Part shown: positions 1,353 to 44,104 of the stretch, piece after piece | Layout of the letters: the number at the start of each line of letters is the position of its first letter | How positions within the stretch are numbered: position 1 is the first letter of the stretch | DNA from: Candidatus Pyrohabitans jungbluthii | GTDB taxonomy: Archaea; Hydrothermarchaeota; Hydrothermarchaeia; Hydrothermarchaeales; BMS3B | Direction of reading: 5' to 3' | DNA: 64,000 bases | Assembly: GCA_002010065.2 (NCBI GenBank) | Contig: MTMD02000002.1 | Location: forward strand, 1 to 64,000 | Translations under genes and position numbers: made by a program | The notes under the pieces: model-generated | Databases searched by the model: none | What the model was told of the DNA's origin: nothing | Seen by the model: only the letters and a program-made list of their open reading frames with translations

Positions 1353-3935
1353 TCAACTTTTTCCTTTTCTAAATGCTTCTTCCTCTGTAAGAATTTTAAT
1401 AGTACATTCGTTATTCCTAATTATATTTTTGAGGTCTTTCCTCACACCTATATCATCAACATTGCCTGAGCAGGTGTTGTTTTCTATTATATTCCCTGCA
1501 GAATACTCTGTTACTCTAATTGCATATCTATTATTTTCAATCAAGTTGTGTGCAATAGTATTCCCATAAGACTTGTATGTAAGAAATATTCCATCAAGTT
1601 TGTTGTTTTTAACAGAACAGCCTTTTACGGTAATGTTGCTTGCTTCCATCCTTATACCAGCGGTGTTGTCACTTGTTGTGCAGTTAGAGATAACAAAGTT
1701 CTCGCTATTGGAGATACATATCCCTACCAGCTCATTGAAGCTTGTTGTGCAATTTTCGATAACTCCATTGACTGACAGGAAGGGGTAGATACCCCCTGTA
1801 TTATAGTTAGCTATGCAGTTGCGGAGTGTCATATTCTCTACACCCAAGACGAAAAAACCATCAATATGATTGTTTTTAGCTGTGCAGTTGACTATCAGTA
1901 GATTTGAGGAAAAAATTTTCGGCATGGGGCATTTTTCCGGAGCTTCCATCATAGTTGGACACTCCACTTTTTCCCCAGCCGTTAAGCCATTGTCGTTTCC
2001 ATTCAGCACGCAGTTTTCAATCACAACATCTGAGAATGAAGAGATAAAGATTCCATCCCCAGCATTTCCCTCAGCAACAATATTCTCTAGCTTCACATCC
2101 CTTACATTCTCTAAATGAATTCCTTTCCCCCATCCTACAACCTTTATGTTTTTGATGGTCAAATTTTTGATGTTCTCAGCAAATATTCCAGCGCTTTTTT
2201 TGTGTTTATCCTCTTCCAATTTACCTTCTTTACCTTTCAAGGCAAATCCATTACCATCAACAATCACATTGTCAGCGCTGATGGTTATGCAGGTTTTAGA
2301 AGAGGAGAGGGCATTTGAAAGGACGTATACGCCTGGCTTTGTTATCTCTGTGCATGCGTTTATCTCCATTTCTTCTGTTTTAAGCCCCTCCTTATCTTTG
2401 GAAAATTCCACAATTTCCACATAAATTGGCGAGGCTGTGAGCATTACCTCATCAGCATCTACGATTTCCTCATTTCCATAGATGTCCGTAACCTTAACTT
2501 TTCCGTCAATAACTTCCGACAGCTTTCCCTCCCCCCAGAGCACATAGAGGGTTTTATTTCCTATCCTGAACTTGTAGTAGCCGTAGCTGGAAGTTATGCC
2601 TGCATCTTCTTCTTTGTTCTCCACATATTTCTGGTCAACGACCTCCACAGAGTCAAAGCGGTTGAGCTTCGCGACCAGGGTATCGTAAACTTTGAATGTG
2701 CTTTCGGATTTCCAGTTATCAGAGATGAAAAAGATTTTATCTGCCCCAAGAGCAAGGGATAAAACAGTAGCTCTAACTATAAGTCTGTTCATTTCTTCAG
2801 CACTAAGTTCTTTTTTCTTTTCCCATTCAAAGCCAAGAGAACCAAATTGAGCCTCTGTAATCCAGATGGGTTTCTCCACGCCGTGTTTCTTCAGGAATTT
2901 TTTAAATTTTAATACAAACATGTCTTCTCTTCTTTCATCGGTATCTATGCTGTGAATATTTGCTATATCAAAATAATTTCCTGCCTCGCTCATTATTGGA
3001 TCCCAGAATTCCACAAACTGCTCATGCATGCCGGCCATCCCGGCCATCAAAACTTTTGCCTCCGGGTCAGCTTCCTTTATGGTGTGGTAGCTTGCTTTGA
3101 GAATTTCAAGGTATTCTTCAGGGGTGCCGTAGAAGAACTTGAGTCCGCTGGGGTCTTTTCCCTGCATTCCCGGCTCGTTCATTATCTCCCAGTATTTTAC
3201 CGGATAAACTAATCCCGGCATGTCGTCAACGCCATCTCCATCGTAACGCTCCACAAACTTTTTCAAAAATTCTTTATAATCTTCCATGCTACAGGGTTTC
3301 CCCACTTTAATTATCATCTCGCCTCCAGGGGGCGGTGAAGGTGGCGGTGGTGGTGAAAGAGGCATCCCCCGGTGGTATTCCTCGTCCCCGGGCATCGGCA
3401 TTTTTCCGTAATACTCTATGCCTCCCGGTGGCATGGACATTTTCCCCAAAAACTCCTCTACAACACCAGGCATGGGTATCCTTCCATAGTATTCATCTCC
3501 ATGACATTTATCCTGGTCCCATTCGGCAAAAGGCATTATTGTTATGAGAAGCAAAATGCCTTCTTCCCCCGCTTTTCTTATCACGTGGTCACTGTAGCCG
3601 AAGTCATAAACATCATATTCTTTCTCCACTTCCCCCCAAGTAATCCACCACCTGACCCAGTGAGCATTCTTTGACATTCCTTCTCTGGAAAAGTGGGTCT
3701 TTTCGAGCTCCGAAAACGTCTCCTCAGGCATATTAATGCCCGGGAAACTCGGATTTATGGCCTCCTCCTGCGATGCATTAGTCTGCACTTTTTCCTTAAA
3801 CTCAACGACTTTTTCTCCGGTTTTTACACATCCGGATAAAAGTATTACTAGAATTAGAACTGTTATAATTATGCGATTCAGAATATCCTTTGCTTCACCG
3901 TATCGTGCATTCTCACGAATTAATACGCAAGACAT
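1353..3935 (-). CDS. Surface lipoprotein: clan GH-A glycosidase-like barrel plus right-handed beta-helix
   Basis: An 860-residue exported protein. Residues 22-36 are hydrophobic and end in the lipobox LLSGC (Cys36), so a lipid-anchored surface protein is expected. Residues about 70-400 resemble a clan GH-A TIM barrel (GH39/GH5 type): WEIMNEPG supplies a candidate acid/base Glu and KPIWITEAQFG a candidate nucleophile Glu. Residues about 540-850 are NosD/pectate-lyase-like beta-helix repeats (rows such as NLTIKNIKVVGWG, NVTVKG-type turns). A Met/Pro-rich repeat insertion (about residues 150-215) interrupts the barrel. A TATA-like TTTATATC at 3976-3986 and GGGGGAT before the ATG give it its own promoter. 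The substrate is unknown; a cell-surface or exopolysaccharide role is inferred. Base composition is more AT-rich than flanking genes. Confidence 0.75.
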   Translation of the reverse strand: MSCVLIRENARYGEAKDILNRIIITVLILVILLSGCVKTGEKVVEFKEKVQTNASQEEAINPSFPGINMPEETFSELEKTHFSREGMSKNAHWVRWWITWGEVEKEYDVYDFGYSDHVIRKAGEEGILLLITIMPFAEWDQDKCHGDEYYGRIPMPGVVEEFLGKMSMPPGGIEYYGKMPMPGDEEYHRGMPLSPPPPPSPPPGGEMIIKVGKPCSMEDYKEFLKKFVERYDGDGVDDMPGLVYPVKYWEIMNEPGMQGKDPSGLKFFYGTPEEYLEILKASYHTIKEADPEAKVLMAGMAGMHEQFVEFWDPIMSEAGNYFDIANIHSIDTDERREDMFVLKFKKFLKKHGVEKPIWITEAQFGSLGFEWEKKKELSAEEMNRLIVRATVLSLALGADKIFFISDNWKSESTFKVYDTLVAKLNRFDSVEVVDQKYVENKEEDAGITSSYGYYKFRIGNKTLYVLWGEGKLSEVIDGKVKVTDIYGNEEIVDADEVMLTASPIYVEIVEFSKDKEGLKTEEMEINACTEITKPGVYVLSNALSSSKTCITISADNVIVDGNGFALKGKEGKLEEDKHKKSAGIFAENIKNLTIKNIKVVGWGKGIHLENVRDVKLENIVAEGNAGDGIFISSFSDVVIENCVLNGNDNGLTAGEKVECPTMMEAPEKCPMPKIFSSNLLIVNCTAKNNHIDGFFVLGVENMTLRNCIANYNTGGIYPFLSVNGVIENCTTSFNELVGICISNSENFVISNCTTSDNTAGIRMEASNITVKGCSVKNNKLDGIFLTYKSYGNTIAHNLIENNRYAIRVTEYSAGNIIENNTCSGNVDDIGVRKDLKNIIRNNECTIKILTEEEAFRKGKS

Positions 3936-25854: not shown

Positions 25855-26679
25855 TTATCCCCACAGAGAAAGATAATTTCTATAAAATATCCTACTCTTA
25901 TCACGATTGCTTAATTCTAGCTCATTTATTTGGTCTATTTGTGCCTTATATCCTGCCCATGGCTCGTCTGAGCCGAAAAGTACTTTTTCTACATTTGTTG
26001 ACACAATCTCTCCAAACGAGGTATTCCTCGACCTAAAAACCACTTTATAAAACCGCAGAGTGCAGGCACTTGTGTCAACAAATAAATTTGGCAGTTCATC
26101 AAGCGCCTCAATAATTTCAGAAACGCCGTTTGCACAGTGAGCTACTTGGAAATTTATTCCATCAAATTTTTCAACAATTTTGAGGAATTTTTCTGGATTT
26201 TGTTCTGTTTTTTCTGATATGTGTATAATCAAATTCAATTCTCTTTCGTTTAGATATTTGAGCAAATCTCCGGACAGTTTCCCGTATGGTTCATAGTGTT
26301 TCACGCCTTTAATATTCTCGAAATTTTCTAAATCCGAATATTCAAATTTTGAACTTATGAAAGGAACAAATTCGATTTTATCATCCTGTAAATTGCTAAT
26401 TTCTTCATTGGTTTTAGAATAATCGACAGTATAATTGAAAAATTTCTTCCAAATGTCTCTCAAAAGGCTTGAACCAAAAGGATAAAAGATTCCTTCAATC
26501 AAATATTTTTTAAGGCTGCTAGGCAATGGCTGTGGAAAAAGGACGGATTTCTCGACATTATATTTCTCCCAATCGCTTTTAAGGGCTTCGTATGTTTTAT
26601 TAGCCCAGATTTTGGATCGGCACACAGCACCATCAAAACTTTCTCTTCCATAATGGCAATGTGCGTCGTTTATTTTCAT
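25855..26679 (-). CDS. Amidohydrolase-family metal-dependent hydrolase
   Basis: A 274-residue TIM-barrel protein of the amidohydrolase_2/TatD-like kind. MKINDAHCHYGRE carries the HxH metal motif, NLIIHISE and INFQVAHCANG supply further His, and VLFGSDEPWAG the late Asp. The reaction and substrate are not known. The ATG at 26679 is chosen because a TTTTTATAT TATA box lies about 20-30 bases before it; the upstream extension would be untranscribed. The gene is clearly more AT-rich than both paaK genes beside it and uses A/T-ending codons, suggesting recent transfer. Confidence 0.75.
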   Translation of the reverse strand: MKINDAHCHYGRESFDGAVCRSKIWANKTYEALKSDWEKYNVEKSVLFPQPLPSSLKKYLIEGIFYPFGSSLLRDIWKKFFNYTVDYSKTNEEISNLQDDKIEFVPFISSKFEYSDLENFENIKGVKHYEPYGKLSGDLLKYLNERELNLIIHISEKTEQNPEKFLKIVEKFDGINFQVAHCANGVSEIIEALDELPNLFVDTSACTLRFYKVVFRSRNTSFGEIVSTNVEKVLFGSDEPWAGYKAQIDQINELELSNRDKSRIFYRNYLSLWG

Positions 26680-26826
26680 AATTATCAGGTGGATTTGAGA
26701 TATAAAAATCTTTCTTACAGAGGCTGTCAAATCCATATAAGATAATTTTAAACACCTTTTGATTTCGCCAGATATAATCCGACAGACGCAAATTTTTTAT
26801 TGTTTGGAGATAAAATATTAAATAAA

Positions 26827-28669: not shown

Positions 28670-28790
28670 GCTACCAACTTCTCCATAGGGATATAAAAAA
28701 ATTTGGTGATAAACCGAGGTTTAAGCTACTCCAACAATTTTGCCCCCACAGATAATTTTTTATAATATCCAACTTTTAAAAGCTAAAAAC

Positions 28791-29456
28791 ATGCAGAGCA
28801 CAGATAAGAATATATTGGAAAGCGCTGTTACAGTGGACGAAGACTTCAGCTTCTGCTTTTGCTGCAACAGCGAGGAGTGTAGTCTGGCGTGCTGCCATGG
28901 CCATGCTATTGCTCTGAACCCCTATGAGGTTCTGAGAATCAAAGAGTACCTGAAGCTGAGCTGTGAGGAGCTGGAAGAGGAGTATCTTCTCAGCCTCTAC
29001 GATGAGAGCGGCTTACCTCTGCTCATGCTGGATCGCGACCCATGCCCTTTTCTGAAACATAGGCGGTGCTCCATTTATCCTGCCCGTCCCCTTGCATGCA
29101 GGCTCTTCCCTCTGGGAAAGGTGTGCAACGGCGAAGCTAAGACGGTTTTCATGAAGGACTGCGACTGCTCGGGTATAGGAAAGGGCAGAAGGCTCACCCT
29201 TCGCGAGTACATTGCGGAGCAGTGCGCCGGGGAGTACATAGAGATGTGGGAGAGGTGGGTCAGCTTTGTGGACACCGTAGCTAGGGCCAAGCTCAGCCGC
29301 AAACCCATGAAGCAGGTTTTCCTTAAAATCCTCCTTTACAACTTTGACTTTCAGCCAAAAGTAGCCAAACCTCATGCCACGCTGGAGGAGCAGTTTCTGG
29401 CGAGGCTAATCGCGGCTGAGGAGTTAATCTCCGGCATAGGCTCTGAAGCCGAATAG
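28791..29456 (+). CDS. YkgJ-family cysteine-cluster protein
   Basis: A 221-residue protein of the zinc- or iron-chelating YkgJ family. Cysteine groups are CFCCNSEECSLACCHGHAIAL near the N-terminus and CPFLKHRRCSIYPARPLACR in the middle, with further CDCSG. The family is widely labelled Fe-S oxidoreductase, but its reaction is not known. The ATG at 28791 follows a TATA-like TTTTTATAATAT (28758-28770); the upstream in-frame ATG at 28740 would lie before it. Its last 33 bases overlap the convergent ferredoxin-domain gene. Confidence 0.85.
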   Translation: MQSTDKNILESAVTVDEDFSFCFCCNSEECSLACCHGHAIALNPYEVLRIKEYLKLSCEELEEEYLLSLYDESGLPLLMLDRDPCPFLKHRRCSIYPARPLACRLFPLGKVCNGEAKTVFMKDCDCSGIGKGRRLTLREYIAEQCAGEYIEMWERWVSFVDTVARAKLSRKPMKQVFLKILLYNFDFQPKVAKPHATLEEQFLARLIAAEELISGIGSEAE

Positions 29457-30188
29457 GAGCTGGTTTTTGATTATGAAGGCAGGAAGTTCCTCCAACCTGC
29501 TGGGACCGAAGATTGTACGCCATCCTAAGTTGAGGCGCAACACCCTCGCCTGCCTTGGCAGGATAACACTCCTGTGTGCAAGCTGAGGAGCCTCTCTTTC
29601 GAGCGTCTCCTTCAACTCCTCTGCATTAAAAGTTCCAAGCGTTAAGGCGAGGCGCATGCAGTACCCCTCACTTGGCACCACCGCAAGGTAGGCATCTATT
29701 CCCGCGAATGAGAGAGCGGCTGTAATCCTTGTTACAGTGTACAGGTAGTCGCTTGTTGCGATTAGAGGCGAAGCCTTTCCCGGGCAGCCTACCTCAAACA
29801 CACCGCTCTTTGTTGGAATCACATGCTCTGCTATGGGATACCCGGGGAGATGAGCATCCGGGTTAAACACAAGGCGCAGCGCCCTGCGAAGTTCCTCGCT
29901 CAGGTGGGGGCACCTCTCAAGCTCCTCTTCGCTTTCTACATTCTCTGCAAAGCTTTCGCAGTCCTCAAAGCTGCACTCCGCACAGTCCAGGTGGGGGAGG
30001 TATTCATAGAGCGACGCCCTTGCACTCTCCCGTTCCCTGCACGCCTCAACACAGTTGAAGCACAGGAAGCAGCGCTGGTAGTCTATCTCGGGTTTGCCTT
30101 CTACCAGGCTAACCGCCTTCACAGGGCACGCGTAGATGCAGGCTCCGCAGGCGTCGCAGCTTTCACCAAGAGGTACTCGCATGGACAT
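29424..30188 (-). CDS. Ferredoxin / corrinoid-Fe-S-protein (CdhE/AcsC)-like protein
   Basis: A 254-residue protein with three parts. Residues 11-50 carry a two-cluster ferredoxin (CDACGACIYACP, CFLCFNCVEAC). Residues 69-93 read LDCAECSFEDCESFAENV with a later Cys, the Cx2Cx4Cx15C spacing of the 4Fe-4S site of the large corrinoid Fe-S protein subunit. The C-terminal 150 residues (ASPLIATSDYLYTVTRI, AYLAVVPSEGYCMRLAL) resemble its TIM-barrel end. An electron-transfer or methyl-corrinoid activation role is inferred, not shown. Starts at 30263, 30218 and 30188 are all in frame; 30188 is preferred because the cluster domain begins there and a hairpin fills the longer form. Confidence 0.6.
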   Translation of the reverse strand: MSMRVPLGESCDACGACIYACPVKAVSLVEGKPEIDYQRCFLCFNCVEACRERESARASLYEYLPHLDCAECSFEDCESFAENVESEEELERCPHLSEELRRALRLVFNPDAHLPGYPIAEHVIPTKSGVFEVGCPGKASPLIATSDYLYTVTRITAALSFAGIDAYLAVVPSEGYCMRLALTLGTFNAEELKETLEREAPQLAHRSVILPRQARVLRLNLGWRTIFGPSRLEELPAFIIKNQLLFGFRAYAGD

Positions 30189-30223
30189 TGCCCTAAAGGA
30201 GTGGGGTAACGAGAGCATAGGAA

Positions 30224-30242
30224 CTTCCCGAACGACGGGAAG
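30224..30242 (-). promoter_or_regulatory. Hairpin in leader of the ferredoxin/CdhE-like gene
   Basis: CTTCCCG (30224-30230) and CGGGAAG (30236-30242) form a perfect 7-bp stem with a five-base loop. On the plus strand it is followed by GGACGAGGGAAACGAAA. It falls either in the 5' leader or, if the longest start is used, inside the N-terminal codons. Similar hairpin-GACGA units occur at 9419 and 63302. Confidence 0.4.
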
Positions 30243-30271
30243 GGACGAGGGAAACGAAATCATCTCCGAAT

Positions 30272-30754
30272 TTATGATAAGCGATCTTTCAGAATGCCTA
30301 TCAAAATAATCGCTAAAATTATGCCAAGCATTATTACAGTATCAGTGAATCCGTAATAGGCGATATCTTGTATTATTATAGAAATCAAACTTACTACAAT
30401 AGTAATTACAGCCCATGCAATCACAACTGTTGCGTATAATTCACTTCCCTTTTTCACTTTATAAAACCCAGTAAAATATTCATATAGAGAGACTATCCAC
30501 AGCAGAATCGGAAACGAAAATAACATTATCCATATAATAAGTGGCCATTGTGCAGGGCTATGACCGATAGGTTCTGGCTGTGTTATTATATACCATATAA
30601 ATCCTATTGGGTCTTTCCAGGGAGCTGGAGCATCTTCAAAGGTGACATGTATACCTATAAGAATAATGATAAAAATAAACGCAAACAAAGCTCCAAATGT
30701 TAACTGAATAATTTCATTCCGCTTTTTTCTTTTGGCTTCTTCTTTATTTTCCAT
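30272..30754 (-). CDS. Multi-span membrane protein of an island paralogue family, copy A
   Basis: A 160-residue protein I do not recognise. It starts with a charged stretch (MENKEEAKRKKRNEIIQ) and has four hydrophobic segments (about 17-37, 70-92, 107-128, 136-155). Between the first two it carries EDAPAPWKDPIGFIWYI followed by TQPEP, and SLYEY after the second; both motifs recur in the genes at 31163-31618 and 33454-33924. AT-rich. Location in the cytoplasmic membrane is predicted; function unknown. It ends nine bases before the longest form of the next gene downstream. Confidence 0.75.
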   Translation of the reverse strand: MENKEEAKRKKRNEIIQLTFGALFAFIFIIILIGIHVTFEDAPAPWKDPIGFIWYIITQPEPIGHSPAQWPLIIWIMLFSFPILLWIVSLYEYFTGFYKVKKGSELYATVVIAWAVITIVVSLISIIIQDIAYYGFTDTVIMLGIILAIILIGILKDRLS

Positions 30755-30816
30755 TTTGTAGCACCAGTATTTTTCTTTTTAGTTAAAGAATATAATGGTA
30801 GAAACATAGGCATTTA

Positions 30817-31107
30817 TTACCTTAGATTTTGAATAAATCTATCAATAAAATATACCGCTAAATCCTCCATTGGTTCTCCCGAAAAGGCGCTGAGAATGAA
30901 GATGATTAATAGGAATAGGATGGGCGTAGCTGAGAAGAACATTATAATCAATGTTGTCCTGCTAACGGTAAATTTTGCAATCAAAAAATTGAGTTCAAAT
31001 TCTTCTTTGTCAAGTCCTTTTTCAAAGGCGTTTGCAACTACATAAACATACCACATAAATAAAAACATAAGTATTACGGCGATTGCCATCAATATTGGGT
31101 CCCCCAT
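30817..31107 (-). CDS. Hypothetical two-span membrane protein, 96 aa
   Basis: Two hydrophobic segments (about residues 5-25 and 52-75) enclose a charged loop (EKGLDKEEFELNFLIAK). It does not show the PWxDPxGFIW motif of its neighbours. AT-rich and in the same direction as the rest of the island. I do not recognise it; the protein could be a partner of the paralogous membrane proteins on either side. Confidence 0.65.
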   Translation of the reverse strand: MGDPILMAIAVILMFLFMWYVYVVANAFEKGLDKEEFELNFLIAKFTVSRTTLIIMFFSATPILFLLIIFILSAFSGEPMEDLAVYFIDRFIQNLR

Positions 31108-31162
31108 ACCAACTTTTCTGTAAAGAAAAATAGTATAAATTTTTCTGTTCTGTTACAGTTTT

Positions 31163-31618
31163 TCATTTACCTTTAATATGACTATATACCAATGCAATTA
31201 TAATCAACAGTAATATCATTCCTACTGTTACTAATGTGTCAGAAAGCCCATAATATGCATAATCTTGTAGCATTACGGATATTATTGATAATGGAATGAT
31301 TAATAGAGCCCATATTAAAAAGAATTTTCCGTAATATATTTCTCTCCCTTTTATATACTCATATAGGGATATCCACCACACATATATTGCTAGAATAAAT
31401 AACATTACCCAGAAAGTATTTGGTAAGAAAATTCCGCCCCATGGGCCAGGTTCAGGCTGGGTTAATATAAACCAGATAAAACCTAATGGGTCTCTCCACG
31501 GAGCCGGAGCGTCTTTAAGAATTACAAAAATCATAAAAAATAAAGCAAATATAATACCGAATGTATACTGTATAACTACTTTCCTCTTTCTTCTCCTAAA
31601 TTCTTCTTTACTTTCCAT
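31163..31618 (-). CDS. Multi-span membrane protein of an island paralogue family, copy C
   Basis: A 151-residue paralogue of the gene at 30272-30754: MESKEEFRRRKRKVVIQYT, then KDAPAPWRDPLGFIWFI and TQPEP, WWISLYEY, and a matching third and fourth hydrophobic segment (SVMLQDYAYYGLSDTLVTVG). A TATA-like AATATTTAAAAG on the minus strand near 31687-31698 gives it its own promoter. Function unknown. Confidence 0.75.
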   Translation of the reverse strand: MESKEEFRRRKRKVVIQYTFGIIFALFFMIFVILKDAPAPWRDPLGFIWFILTQPEPGPWGGIFLPNTFWVMLFILAIYVWWISLYEYIKGREIYYGKFFLIWALLIIPLSIISVMLQDYAYYGLSDTLVTVGMILLLIIIALVYSHIKGK

Positions 31619-31833
31619 TTTACATCCCCAATAATTTGCTTCTATTTCTCCACCACTCCTCTACCAAATTATTTTTGCGACCAAACTTTTAAATATTTTC
31701 TTCTATAGATTAGCCTGATTTCAATTTGTTGCAGAGGATTACTTTAGTCTACTTATCAAACTAAAAAATTGGAATAACCAAAAAATATAGCACAAATACA
31801 ATAAATAGTGAAAAAGTGTAAGTAAAGTGTGTA

Positions 31834-32394
31834 TCACATGAAAATATCAGATGGTACGAAATAGGCTAATAATATCCCAAGTAAAACAAAAAAAGCAAAA
31901 AAGAGTATAATCACTAAAATAGATTTACTCCATGATAATTCATGAGCAAATCTAATTGCAAAAATGAAACATAAAATACTCCATAAATCACCAATCACCG
32001 TTCCAAACAGTGGTATTACTCCTAACATAAGAGGAGCATAAGTAAAACCGGCAACTCTAAGGAATCCTATAAGACTTGCTCTTCCACCTACAAATTTTGC
32101 AGGAATATGAGCAATGATGGTAAAAACTAACCAGCTTACTAACATAAAAGTCGGCATAAATATTATATCTATCCAACCAAATAATGGACCTGATAGATTT
32201 TTAAATAATGTATATTTTTGAAATACTGATGCTACATAAATGTTCCCTAACGCGGGAAGAAATCCGCTTAGTAGTACAATAAGGATAGCATATTTCAACA
32301 TTTCCTCATCATCTCTCACCTCTTTATATACCGATTGATCAAGTAGCAGTACGCGTTTCATCCTATTTAGCAAGGATGATTTTGTTAATGGCAT
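31834..32394 (-). CDS. Yip1-domain membrane protein
   Basis: A 186-residue protein with five membrane segments and the Yip1 pattern: an N-terminal cytoplasmic helix (LLLDQSVYKEVRDDEEMLKY), then FVGGRASLIGFLRVAGFTYA and PLMLGVIPLFGTVIGDLWSI. Archaeal Yip1-domain proteins are common but uncharacterised. The ATG at 32394 has GGGGAAG upstream; an alternative at 32361 would follow the stop of a possible 30-codon frame. A 215-base AT-rich gap separates it from the next gene downstream. Confidence 0.75.
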   Translation of the reverse strand: MPLTKSSLLNRMKRVLLLDQSVYKEVRDDEEMLKYAILIVLLSGFLPALGNIYVASVFQKYTLFKNLSGPLFGWIDIIFMPTFMLVSWLVFTIIAHIPAKFVGGRASLIGFLRVAGFTYAPLMLGVIPLFGTVIGDLWSILCFIFAIRFAHELSWSKSILVIILFFAFFVLLGILLAYFVPSDIFM

Positions 32395-32455
32395 TCCTCA
32401 CTTCCCCTATGGGTACATCCTCTTTAAGTATGACAACAGATAAAATTATTCTCAT
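32363..32455 (-). CDS. Possible 30-aa coupled small ORF
   Basis: An ATG at 32455 overlaps the stop of the upstream gene (ATGA), and the frame MRIILSVVILKEDVPIGEVR, NAINKIILAK runs for 30 codons to 32363, overlapping the first 32 bases of the Yip1 gene. The overlap geometry resembles coupled genes, but the length gives little statistical weight. Confidence 0.25.
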   Translation of the reverse strand: MRIILSVVILKEDVPIGEVRNAINKIILAK

Positions 32456-32751
32456 TTCTCCTTTTTGGTTGGTATATTGTAAGTTGGTGGCTCGCTTCTC
32501 TCCACAAAAACCACAAACAGCACTGTTATAATTAGGCTTACAATTAAATACAGTAGAGTGGATAGCAGGATTACTACCCATTTCGGGATGCCGTACTCAA
32601 AGTAAAGATTAGAGAGAGGCTTCAGCAGAAAATATGTCAGCACCAGCGATGAGAAAACAAGGATGACAAACCAGTGCTCTATAAAATCCCTCCAGCCGAG
32701 CTTTTTTATCGCCTTTCTGACCTTCTCCAGCAATGCCATTCCCCCAATCAA
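32452..32751 (-). CDS. Hypothetical two-span membrane protein, 99 aa
   Basis: An N-terminal amphipathic part (LLEKVRKAIKKLGWRDFIEH) is followed by two hydrophobic segments (about residues 27-46 and 57-83) and a polar tail ending IPTKKEK. It begins inside the stop of the upstream soluble gene (four-base overlap), so the two are probably translated together. Not recognised. Confidence 0.65.
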   Translation of the reverse strand: MIGGMALLEKVRKAIKKLGWRDFIEHWFVILVFSSLVLTYFLLKPLSNLYFEYGIPKWVVILLSTLLYLIVSLIITVLFVVFVERSEPPTYNIPTKKEK

Positions 32752-33413
32752 TAGCTCTGCAGCAGCTCAAAAAATTTCAGGTTGAAGTCTATTGCCTCTC
32801 TCAGAAGCCTGCGTCTTTTTTCTTTCCTGTTGCCTACAGCCCAGTAAATTTGGGAAATCTCTCCTATTTCAAGCTTTAATTCTCTATCGTTAAGACGCCC
32901 TTTCCAGAAGGCTTTAAAAATATCAGGTCTCTCAAATGTTTCAAGTAAAGAATTCACTTTATTTGAGAAAAATTGTATTAACTTAGGGACATCTTCAGTA
33001 TTGTCTAAAATCAATAACTTTTTCCCTAAAATACGCTTAACGTAGAATCCTTTTTTGATACTAAATCCCATTTTAAGGTCTCCAAAATTTCTTATTCTTG
33101 GATTGGCATCCTTTGCATCCCATATAAAGGTGAGAGTGTAGTAATTTTCTGTAGGGGTTGAGTAGGATAGAGTCTCTCCAATAAACTCGCAGTTATGCGG
33201 AAGCTTGGCTTTGAGCATCTGATGCTTGTTGGCATCGGTAGTCATCTTAGATGTATTTTTAGGGTGAATTCCAATCCAGATTATTTCTCCATTAAAATCC
33301 TCAACTACAACCCTTGCGAGGTCCTCAATTAAGTCCTTGAGAGTCTCTACTTTAAACATCTCCTTAATGGTTCTGAGGGTATCCAATTTGAATATGCCCC
33401 TAAGGGCTCCCAT
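32748..33413 (-). CDS. Hypothetical soluble protein, 221 aa
   Basis: No membrane segment or known motif is visible. The N-terminal 60 residues suggest helix then strand (LKDLIEDLARVVVEDFNGEI, IWIGIHPKN), the middle is strand-rich (NYYTLTFIWDAKDANPRIRN), and the last 60 residues are charged and helical (RKEKRRRLLREAIDFNLKFF). It overlaps the downstream two-span protein by four bases. It may be the cytoplasmic partner of the membrane proteins in this island; this is inference from position only. Confidence 0.65.
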   Translation of the reverse strand: MGALRGIFKLDTLRTIKEMFKVETLKDLIEDLARVVVEDFNGEIIWIGIHPKNTSKMTTDANKHQMLKAKLPHNCEFIGETLSYSTPTENYYTLTFIWDAKDANPRIRNFGDLKMGFSIKKGFYVKRILGKKLLILDNTEDVPKLIQFFSNKVNSLLETFERPDIFKAFWKGRLNDRELKLEIGEISQIYWAVGNRKEKRRRLLREAIDFNLKFFELLQSY

Positions 33414-33453
33414 AGTTTATTACCCCACTTAATTTTTGTAATTCCTGTAGATC

Positions 33454-33924
33454 CTATGATAAATAATCCTTCAATGTGCTTATCAAAATAATCGCTAAAA
33501 TTATACCCCATACTATTAGAGTGTCCTTCAATCCCCAGTGAACAATAGGTGCTGCGAAGAGAGATGTTACAATCAGCAGAATAGTAATTGCAATCCACGC
33601 CAGAAAGACCTTTTCGCCCAAGTCACTGAATTTGTTTACCTCGTATATTCCATTAAAATATTCATATAAAGACACTATCCAGAATAGAAAAGGTAACAGA
33701 AAAATCATATAAATAAACGCCCAAGGGACTGAACCTCTCTCAGGCTCCGGGTATGCTATTATATGCCAGATAAAACCCAAAGGGTCTTCCCATGGAAAGG
33801 GGGCTCCCTCCAATTTTACATTCATTAAAACTACAAAGGATAATATGAGCAATGATAAGATTGAGAGAATCATGTATTGAATTGTTTCTTTCAGCTTTTT
33901 ACGTTTGGATTTCTCATCCTTCAC
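33454..33924 (-). CDS. Multi-span membrane protein of an island paralogue family, copy G
   Basis: About 156 residues from the GTG at 33924 (KDEKSKRKKLKETIQYM), which aligns with the N-termini of copies A and C; a GTG at 33945 would add seven residues. EGAPFPWEDPLGFIWHI, YPEP and WIVSLYEYFNG match the family motifs. Its last codons share 24 identical bases with the end of copy A (33481-33504 against 30299-30322). Function unknown; membrane location predicted. Confidence 0.72.
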   Translation of the reverse strand: MKDEKSKRKKLKETIQYMILSILSLLILSFVVLMNVKLEGAPFPWEDPLGFIWHIIAYPEPERGSVPWAFIYMIFLLPFLFWIVSLYEYFNGIYEVNKFSDLGEKVFLAWIAITILLIVTSLFAAPIVHWGLKDTLIVWGIILAIILISTLKDYLS

Positions 33925-33977
33925 TATTCTTGCCCATCCTACCACAAGATTTTTTTAAGCCTTTTCTATTACTTTTT

Positions 33978-34253
33978 TTAACTCCTCCAAATTTGATAAT
34001 TTCCTTGTAAGTATTCTTTGAGTTCCCACAAAAACAGGAGAGTAGAAAAAATTCCCAAGATTACAATAATACCTGGTGCCATTCTGGCCCATCCATAACC
34101 GACGCCAGACAATAAATATTTTATCAACTCCCATTTGGTTTCAGCAGGAGCAGTTTTAATTATGTAGTAGGACCATAGGTCAAATATTATAGCTAAAACA
34201 AACATCTGTAATACCTGATTTCTCTTCTTCCTCTTTGCTTCTTTAATATCCAT
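33978..34253 (-). CDS. Short member of the island paralogue family, copy H
   Basis: A 91-residue protein. MDIKEAKRKKRNQVLQMF matches the charged N-terminus of copies A and C and LWELKEYLQGNY their SLYEY block, but the PWxDPxGFIW motif is reduced to APAETKWELIKYLL and the last two membrane segments are absent. It is either a short variant or a decaying copy. It is the first gene of the minus-strand island, with ATTTTAAAT-type TATA sequence before the ATG. Confidence 0.6.
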   Translation of the reverse strand: MDIKEAKRKKRNQVLQMFVLAIIFDLWSYYIIKTAPAETKWELIKYLLSGVGYGWARMAPGIIVILGIFSTLLFLWELKEYLQGNYQIWRS

Positions 34254-34327
34254 ACTGAATTTTATTTAATCACTCATTTAAAATATTTTCTCATTCTCAT
34301 TAACTGACGCTGAATCACGCTATTAAG

Positions 34328-35407
34328 CTACATAAAGTCCTCCAGCGTAACCGCCTGCCTCTTTTTAAGCTTTGAAAGCCTTATACCCAGGAGACGTACC
34401 TTTCTCCCGCGAAGAAAGCTTGAGAGCAGGGCTTCAGCCACTTCCTTTATTGTATCCAGGTCGCCATGGTAGCTGCTCAGGGTTCTAGCATGAGTGTGTG
34501 TTTCAAAGTCGGCAAACCTCACTTTTAACGTCAGGGTTTTGAACAGGAAGCCTTCCTCCTCTAAATCGCGGTGCACGCCTTCAGCGATTTCCTCCAGCGC
34601 AGATTTTAGCGCTTCCTCCTCGCCTAAGTCATGCTCAAACGTCCTCTCCCTGCCTATGGACTTGACCTTTGAGCGTTCCCTTACCTCGCGGTCGTCTATG
34701 CCACGGGCAAGCATAATTAGGCGGTGAGCCCACCTGCCAAAAGCCGGGATTAGCCTCTGCACATCGCAGTTTGCAAGTTCCCCAATTGTGGTTATTCCCA
34801 GCTCCTTCAGCACCTCCTCGCTTCTTGGCCCAATACCTGGAATTTTTCGGACAGGTAGCGGAGAAAGGAACCTCTCAACCTCTTGCGGCTCAACCACAGT
34901 TAAGCCGTCTGGCTTGCGGTGGTCAGATGCGATTTTAGCAACGAGCTTGTTTGGGCCTATGCCTATGGAGCAGGTTAGCTTCTCCTTTTCGTAGATCTCG
35001 GCCTTTATGCGCTTCGCGAGCTTAGCAGCCTCTGCATAGCTTTTAGCGATGCCGGTAACGTCTAAGTAAGCTTCGTCCACGCTCACCTGCTGGAACTTGA
35101 CCGCGTAGCTCCGCAGTATCTGCATTATTCTCCTCGACACCCTCCAGTAGAGTTCGTGGCGCACCGGCAAAAACACGCAGTGGGGACAGAGCTTGTAAGC
35201 CTGGGATATAGGCATTGCGGAGCGAACGCCATACCTGCGAGCCTCGTAGCTGGCGGTGCTCACCACCCCTCTGCCCTTACCTCCCTTTGGGTCAGCGCCC
35301 ACAACGACGGGCTTGCCTCTAAGCTCGGGATTCTCCCTCTGCTCTATCGCAGAGAAGAAGCTGTCCATGTCAACGTGGAGTATTATTCTATTGCGGCGCG
35401 AACGCAT
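34328..35407 (-). CDS. dinB: DNA polymerase IV (Y-family, DinB/Dpo4)
   Basis: A 359-residue translesion polymerase. Palm motifs are ILHVDMDSFFSAIEQRENPE (first catalytic Asp) and VSVDEAYLDVTG (Asp-Glu pair); VVSTASYEARRYGVRSAMPI is the finger block; PGIGPRSEEVLKELGI is the thumb helix-hairpin-helix; a little-finger domain follows. It ends in LKKRQAVTLEDFM, which lacks an evident PCNA box of the QxxLxxFF type. It copies past damaged bases with low fidelity. Single gene next to the flavin-binding protein gene. Confidence 0.95.
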   Translation of the reverse strand: MRSRRNRIILHVDMDSFFSAIEQRENPELRGKPVVVGADPKGGKGRGVVSTASYEARRYGVRSAMPISQAYKLCPHCVFLPVRHELYWRVSRRIMQILRSYAVKFQQVSVDEAYLDVTGIAKSYAEAAKLAKRIKAEIYEKEKLTCSIGIGPNKLVAKIASDHRKPDGLTVVEPQEVERFLSPLPVRKIPGIGPRSEEVLKELGITTIGELANCDVQRLIPAFGRWAHRLIMLARGIDDREVRERSKVKSIGRERTFEHDLGEEEALKSALEEIAEGVHRDLEEEGFLFKTLTLKVRFADFETHTHARTLSSYHGDLDTIKEVAEALLSSFLRGRKVRLLGIRLSKLKKRQAVTLEDFM

Positions 35408-42578: not shown

Positions 42579-44057
42579 CTAGCACATCATGAGGAAAAGC
42601 CAGAGGGGTGTGAAAACAATCTCATCCCTGTAGTCCAGCGCATCCTTTGTTATAACGATGCCCAAGCATTTGTCGTGCTCCCTCTGGAACTGCCTTATAC
42701 CTTTAAGTTCACTTTTGCGTATTTCATTTCTGTACTTGCACTCTATGGCCACGGGTCTTCTGGATACCTCAAAAACTATATCGACCTCTTTACCCTGCGC
42801 CGTCCTCCAATAAAATAGCTCCAGCCTGCTTCCCGGCTCTAAGTTGAATTTGAGCCTTCTGCAGTGGTCATGAACAATAGTTTCGACGATCTTGCCGAGT
42901 TCAGCTGCATCTTCGAGAAGCGTCTCACGCAACTCACCAACAATGGCGTTTCTTAGTCCCACATTGCTAAGGTAAAGCTTCTTCGCTTTTCTAATCCTGG
43001 ATGCCCTGCTTTTAGAATAAAACTCAGCCCTGCTCGAAAGGAACACCGATTCTAAATAATTCAGGTACTTTATCAGAGTGTCTTTTTTTAGTCCCAATGT
43101 CCCGGATAAACTCGAATAATCAACCCGTTGAGAGGACTGGTCGGCTATCAAAATAACAAGCTCTTCCAGCGCTCTGGGGTCGCGCAGATTGAAAATCCTG
43201 ATAATGTCTTTGTATATTGTAAGGTTTAGGTAAGTTCTGAGCTTTTCAGCACACTCATCTAGTGACTCAATCTCTAAAAGTCCGGGATAACCGTCTTTGA
43301 GAAGATACGTCTGTAGATGAATTTTAATTTCATCCTCATATGGTACAAGGCTTGAGTAGGACTCTCTCAGCGCACTATAAAACAGGCTGGGATTAGATTT
43401 TTTAATAGAATCAACAAAAGCGTCTCTAAGAGTCCTATTGACCATCTTAAAAATAGAGTCCTTCTTGGGCATGTGATACCTCAGGAAATCCAGAAACTTC
43501 AGAGGAAACATAATTTGAATGGTTATTCTGCCCGCTAGGGATTCAGAACTTCCCTGTAGAATGTTTGCGCTTGAGGAGTCTGAGATTATGAACTTTATTG
43601 GGTACTTCAGGTCATACCAACCCTTGAGGACATGGCTCCAGTTTTCAAGCTTGCAAACCTCGTCGAGGAATACATATATCCTGTCACCAAGCTTGGAAAT
43701 GGGTTCTTTAAGAACCTGGGTGGAGTATATCTCAAGGATATCGTTCAGCGGGGTATCCATAATAGTGGTGAGATACGGGTAGTCAAAGGAGACATAAAGA
43801 ATACGCTTTGGATTCACTTTTTTCTCACGTATAAGGTGTTCAATCAGCTGGTATATCATGGTTGTTTTTCCAACCTGTCTCGGTCCAATTATGGCGGTTA
43901 TCTCCCCTTCACCCAACCTTTTATCTCTGATGACGTAAAAATCACGCCTTTTAAATGGTTTTGTTAGGTTCTTAGGCACGCTGGCAGTCTCCCACCAGGG
44001 GTTCTGACGGTGAAGCAACTTTATAACTTTTTGTTCAATGTCTCTTTGCATGACCAT
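42579..44057 (-). CDS. AAA (AAA_14) ATPase with DUF4143 domain
   Basis: About 492 residues. Walker A is IGPRQVGKTTMIY (near residues 57-68) and Walker B is RIYVFLDEVCKL. The C-terminal DUF4143 part contains LFYWRTAQGKEVDIVFEVSR and VAIECKYRNEIRKS, a PD-(D/E)xK nuclease-like motif. Such ATPases are frequent in archaeal genomes, in varying copy number, with unclear role. More AT-rich than both neighbours. The start lies within ATGGTCATG: 44057 or 44051 could be used, and TTTATATA at 44076-44083 suggests a leaderless transcript. The promoter lies between the arms of a 14-bp inverted repeat. Confidence 0.85.
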   Translation of the reverse strand: MVMQRDIEQKVIKLLHRQNPWWETASVPKNLTKPFKRRDFYVIRDKRLGEGEITAIIGPRQVGKTTMIYQLIEHLIREKKVNPKRILYVSFDYPYLTTIMDTPLNDILEIYSTQVLKEPISKLGDRIYVFLDEVCKLENWSHVLKGWYDLKYPIKFIISDSSSANILQGSSESLAGRITIQIMFPLKFLDFLRYHMPKKDSIFKMVNRTLRDAFVDSIKKSNPSLFYSALRESYSSLVPYEDEIKIHLQTYLLKDGYPGLLEIESLDECAEKLRTYLNLTIYKDIIRIFNLRDPRALEELVILIADQSSQRVDYSSLSGTLGLKKDTLIKYLNYLESVFLSSRAEFYSKSRASRIRKAKKLYLSNVGLRNAIVGELRETLLEDAAELGKIVETIVHDHCRRLKFNLEPGSRLELFYWRTAQGKEVDIVFEVSRRPVAIECKYRNEIRKSELKGIRQFQREHDKCLGIVITKDALDYRDEIVFTPLWLFLMMC

Positions 44058-44104
44058 TATATGGGGTGTGTTGGTATATAAATTTAACAAATATAATGGT
44101 CATG
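44049..44104. repeat. Perfect 14-bp inverted repeat flanking the ATPase promoter
   Basis: CATGACCATTATAT at 44049-44062 is the exact reverse complement of ATATAATGGTCATG at 44091-44104. The arms are 28 bases apart and enclose the TATA box (44076-44083, minus strand). The left arm also contains the ATPase start codons. It may be an operator for autoregulation or a trace of a mobile element end. Confidence 0.75.

Follow-up and report, generated by a model that had tools for sequence, protein, structure and literature searches.

What kind of system is encoded by a block of small, AT-rich membrane-protein genes inserted between dinB and a 4Fe-4S protein gene of the archaeon Candidatus Pyrohabitans jungbluthii? 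The original prediction, made from the 64,000-nucleotide stretch that we analysed (the window), described an unrecognised family of four paralogous membrane proteins interleaved with a Yip1 protein, two two-span proteins and one soluble protein, all on one strand, and proposed that it could be a lineage-specific envelope or defence-like system. We find eight minus-strand genes within 30272-34253, at or near the positions first described and of the kinds named, with the start of the two-span gene D (32452) corrected to the ATG at 32739 and a GTG start for the gene at 33454 (Table 1).

Table 1. Features of the inserted island and its flanks, in window coordinates
Feature	Position	Strand	Remarks
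Flank, 4Fe-4S protein	29424..30263	-	G007 homology from 30183
Inserted AT-rich island	30222..34327	.	G007 flanks about 45 bp apart; G+C 34.6% vs 53.4% for the rest
A-long, 160 residues, four spans, modelled	30272..30754	-	A158 gene in the same slot of L002
B, two-span protein, 96 residues (B96)	30817..31107	-	relatives: two in L002, also L013
A-long, 151 residues (A151), four spans	31163..31618	-	L002 protein 99% identical
Relic, 3' end of another (L002-type) Yip1 gene	31761..31829	-	between intact Yip1 and A151
Yip1-family membrane protein, intact	31834..32394	-	PF04893 E 1.5e-12, over cut-off
D, two-span protein, 95 residues	32452..32739	-	L002 copy 97% identical
C, soluble orphan, 221 residues	32748..33413	-	mosaic identity to L002
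A-long, 163 residues (A163), four spans	33454..33945	-	GTG start; L002 has a second short gene and a B gene instead
A-short, 91 residues, two-span, first island gene	33978..34253	-	
Flank, dinB (Y-family DNA polymerase)	34328..35407	-	PF00817 E 8e-55; three congeners 81-85% identical

The island is a 4.1 kb insertion whose composition is, as predicted, unlike that of its flanks: the lowest G+C content among 259 other 4.1 kb stretches was 45.4%, well above that of the island. In the congener G007, the gap between dinB and the Fe-S gene is only about 45 bp, and homology to the window ends at 34328 and restarts at 30183; the true start of the 4Fe-4S gene is therefore probably near 30182. Two other congeners carry different contents at this place, an APC permease between dinB and the Fe-S gene in G008 (spanning two overlapping contigs) and a nucleotidyltransferase/HEPN pair directly after dinB in G009. 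Thus, the dinB junction is a variable site. We detected neither a tRNA nor an end repeat at this site, no RNA family in the island region, and no toxin, effector, nuclease, integrase or known defence protein in the island. Searches of Pfam, PHROGs, NCBIfam and PADLOC assigned a family to only one of the eight genes (Yip1), and the single PADLOC match was weak (E 0.016) and to C only.

The three long members of the A family (151-163 residues; genes at 30272, 31163 and 33454) are 39-48% identical to each other and do share the motifs first noted in them: a KRKKR charged start, APxPWxDPxGFIW, PEP and SLYEY. The fourth gene was also said to share the charged start and the SLYEY block. Its 91-residue product is genuinely, though distantly, related to the N-terminal half of A-long (profile-profile E 6e-10; two long proteins matched by BLASTP at 2e-5, the third not significantly), but it has ELKEY in place of SLYEY and lacks the Trp/Pro block; from sequence, A-short is predicted to be equivalent to the first half of A-long. 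The family is indeed unrecognised, with no known-family match in the four collections. Across all the proteins compared, weak matches to DUF1240 (E 0.03 only), holin, uL24, Rrp7 and Lit were below the cut-off or partial, and we treated them as chance. A long copy and a short copy also lie beyond the window (C14:14850 and C14:61222, respectively).

A-long is predicted to have its N-terminus inside, with residues 39-71 and 130-139 forming outside loops. Among the four long copies, identity was 58-60% in the outside loops and in both cytoplasmic parts, whereas spans 1 and 3 were most variable (mean identity 32%). The Trp/Pro loop, which had been put forward as a functional site, is conserved and predicted to be extracytoplasmic, but it is one of several conserved parts, since the cytoplasmic parts are equally conserved (58% each). 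In an AlphaFold2 model of A-long (pLDDT 77), loop 1 contains a short helix in addition to the four long ones of the protein, and a search for fold relatives returned nothing below E 1 in the PDB or in viral structures.

B is its own family, distinct from the other two-span protein D, and we rejected a relationship between B and A because none was found. C had no convincing relative outside the species group and a structure model that was uninformative (pLDDT 38); D gave just weak matches elsewhere. The intact Yip1 gene in the window is the sole one found in the genome. Together, these results delimit four new protein families.

We searched 394 sampled archaeal genomes for the A family at a threshold of E 1e-4 and found it in only three, which upholds the view of it as lineage-specific. 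Six copies are in the present genome. A single short copy, close to a B gene, is in G012, a genome from the same order that also carries sulfate-reduction-type genes. The third genome, filed as Archaeoglobus sp. JdFR-32, has A genes only on one 3.8 kb contig from Juan de Fuca. The host phylum is represented in the collection by one class of 23 species, and intact copies are absent from 21 of the 23 genomes. This size of the phylum, the Juan de Fuca contig, the G+C content and the sulfate-reduction-type genes of G012 suggest that it is Hydrothermarchaeota (compare PMC6775978). At the sensitivity used, we found no relative of A, B or C among 2.9 million viral contigs, and none of A-long among 50,697 phage and 72,556 plasmid records. 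Co-occurrence of A with Yip1 and the 221-residue protein is confined to this species group.

The Archaeoglobus-labelled contig (L002; MTMT01000041.1, 1-3831) is the only comparison strain for the array. It starts with a tRNA-Ile(GAT), and its positions 1-150 are 98% identical to C14:61607-61755 of the present genome (G000); thus, it most likely comes from a close strain and was misbinned. We rejected a true Archaeoglobus origin, because the Archaeoglobus bin has its own, different tRNA-Ile (89% identical) and misbinning is the simpler explanation. On L002, the tRNA-Ile is followed by an array of short, short, B, C, D, Yip1, A151, B96 and A158 genes. The present genome has the array at dinB, and its tRNA-Ile is followed only by a single short gene and an unrelated gene for a 364-residue protein. 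The 364-residue product (L012 8557-9651) is a membrane protein with no family and a weak Lit match, encoded convergently with the short A gene. We found no end repeat at the tRNA-Ile. In the congener G009, this site holds a 33-bp relic of a short gene, which excludes that it was never occupied; the A family was therefore probably present in the common ancestor and lost in G009.

Comparison of the window with L002 revealed a mosaic, with blocks of 97-99% identity (D, A151 and B96) and blocks of 45-75% identity (short/A163, most of C, and Yip1). The window A-short gene opens with 48 nt that the second short gene of L002 matches exactly, whereas the next 48 nt are 52% identical and the sequence beyond the first 48 nt as a whole is 52-71% identical to the L002 copy. 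Agreement of synonymous codons was higher in the 48-nt block than elsewhere (69:21 vs 133:86, P 0.008, for pairs that are not independent). The A158 gene on C14 has changed promoters: its upstream region is of the A151 type (97% over 99 nt), yet its coding start shares 99% identity with that of L002 A158, whose own upstream region differs (40%). Neighbouring paralogues that crossed over at the start codon would explain this mismatch. Fragments of Yip1 3' ends remain in two places, one ahead of A158 and one behind the intact Yip1 gene in the window, where identity to L002 climbs from 0.56 to 0.94 across the relic. We conclude that recombination between paralogues and strains exchanges genes and promoters, and that relic and broken copies persist, the relics recording loss and replacement.

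The C14 copy of A158 adjoins a tRNA-Arg(CCG), within a 3.5 kb stretch (L011 8010-11630) that also encodes a PIN toxin and a nucleotidyltransferase (toxin-antitoxin genes). The 3' end of this tRNA recurs 3.5 kb away as a 26-nt direct repeat with 23 of 26 bases identical (score 19, compared to a maximum of 11 in 40 shuffles). Thus, the stretch bears the mark of an integrative element, though without an integrase, none being found among the ORFs of either this stretch or the island. The position of A158 between a tRNA and its 3'-end repeat resembles that of archaeal tRNA-targeted integrative elements; unlike those elements, neither copy has an integrase and the window copy lies at a protein-gene junction without a tRNA.

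Related arrays or single genes therefore occupy at least three sites in the species (the dinB junction, tRNA-Ile and tRNA-Arg). We consider the island to be an accessory array of small membrane proteins that varies by strain and is of the archaeal 'dark matter island' kind, with a probability of about 0.5; seven of its eight genes are without a family, and its content varies between strains and congeners. A large unexplained share of archaeal genomes lies in islands of small membrane proteins, and movement and variation of such islands can be tested here because flanks, empty sites, relics and crossovers are all readable when two close strains are compared. Makarova and colleagues described islands that cluster Yip1, SpoIIM-like and fast-evolving small membrane proteins, among them a cassette of Yip1 (arCOG02054), SpoIIM-like (arCOG01996) and small membrane (arCOG09673) proteins, and proposed defence or membrane remodelling for them (PMC4158269, PMC5898192). 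The present island is similar in that Yip1 stands beside small, fast-evolving membrane proteins (A-long, A-short, B and D) without detectable relatives, and in that such cassettes also occur in variable islands of thermophilic archaea. It differs in having no SpoIIM/DUF95, AAA+ or ABC component (none of the eight proteins gave a SpoIIM-like, PF01944/arCOG01996, match), in that A has no match outside the group in the 394 archaeal genomes and C and D have marginal matches only, and in that site changes and promoter exchange at a start codon are visible. Because SpoIIM is missing, we do not file the island as a member of these cassettes, although it may work like them.

In line with what Makarova and colleagues proposed for the Yip1/SpoIIM cassettes, Yip1 could be the core of a complex for membrane remodelling or envelope stress in which A, B and D are the fast-evolving partners; we regard this as rather unlikely. 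Yip1 does lie inside the array, yeast Yip1 has a known two-span partner (PMC5898192), and conservation of the extracytoplasmic loops hints at a ligand or partner that stays constant. However, SpoIIM/DUF95, AAA+ and SalXY-type genes are missing from the island, and neither the A genes at the two C14 sites nor those in L013 are accompanied by Yip1. Furthermore, the Yip1 gene of L002 is broken, yet its A and B neighbours are intact; this gene is a divergent allele with frameshifts near T runs, which may be assembly errors.

We also considered that the genes might be decaying cargo of integrated viruses or plasmids, retained by chance and turning over as junk. The tRNA-Arg element with its end repeat and toxin-antitoxin genes would fit such an origin, as would the small size and AT-richness of the genes, the relics and the frameshifted Yip1. 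In contrast, integrase, replication and virion genes are all absent, and the viral, phage and plasmid collections held no relatives at the sensitivity used. Moreover, dN/dS between the window and L002 was low for five gene pairs (A151, 0.13; B96, 0.10; D, 0.15; C, 0.24; short, 0.14; the values for A151, B96 and D reflect just 4-6 synonymous and 2-3 other changes per pair). The intact copies are thus under purifying selection, and we find this origin unlikely. The original prediction held that absence from all relatives together with decay would count against a system; intact copies are indeed absent from most of the phylum and relics occur, but the copies here are intact and selected.

If the array is an accessory system of the kind that we favour, A, B, D and Yip1 would act jointly in the cytoplasmic membrane as an optional complex, with soluble C as a cytoplasmic partner, and conflict with viruses or neighbouring microbes would drive the turnover of its alleles. 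Such a role in conflict is possible, and we propose it tentatively. The pattern in A-long, in which the outside loops are among the conserved parts and the variation is concentrated in spans 1 and 3, counts against it, being the opposite of that expected of a surface target evading recognition. The negative results given above for the island and for the dinB junction count against it as well. For the envelope or defence function first suggested, there was no PADLOC match of note and no linked effector, and the Trp/Pro loop was conserved no better than the cytoplasmic parts.

Arrays of immunity genes acquired by bacteria consist of tandem small paralogues with turnover at the strain level. The island shares this pattern but has no sequence relation to the bacterial arrays. 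If the conflict role took the special form of immunity to secreted, membrane-active toxins, it would account for several small membrane paralogues lying together and being gained and lost strain by strain. This is improbable, given that no cognate toxin was found in the island or its immediate flanks and that no immunity family scored over the cut-off (DUF1240 reached only E 0.03).

A further possibility, which we judge improbable, is that the array represents a new diversification system, in which a conserved promoter and 5' coding block are joined to a variable body and genes are swapped among several chromosomal sites. If true, strains would differ in the membrane proteins that they deploy in conflict with viruses or neighbours.

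Other AT-richer regions occur in the window: a stretch at 25855-26736 (35% G+C) with an amidohydrolase gene inside, and two genes named from sequence only, one at 1353-3935 for an 860-residue lipoprotein-like protein that combines glycosidase-like with right-handed-repeat parts and one at 42579-44090 for a 503-residue ATPase of the archaeal ATP-binding kind. We also noted that three loci have a CxxCxxCC-type metal-binding protein no more than a few kb from an A-family gene, which could be coincidence: window 28740-29456 and L013 3278-4018, both with PF03692, and L011 14715-15593.
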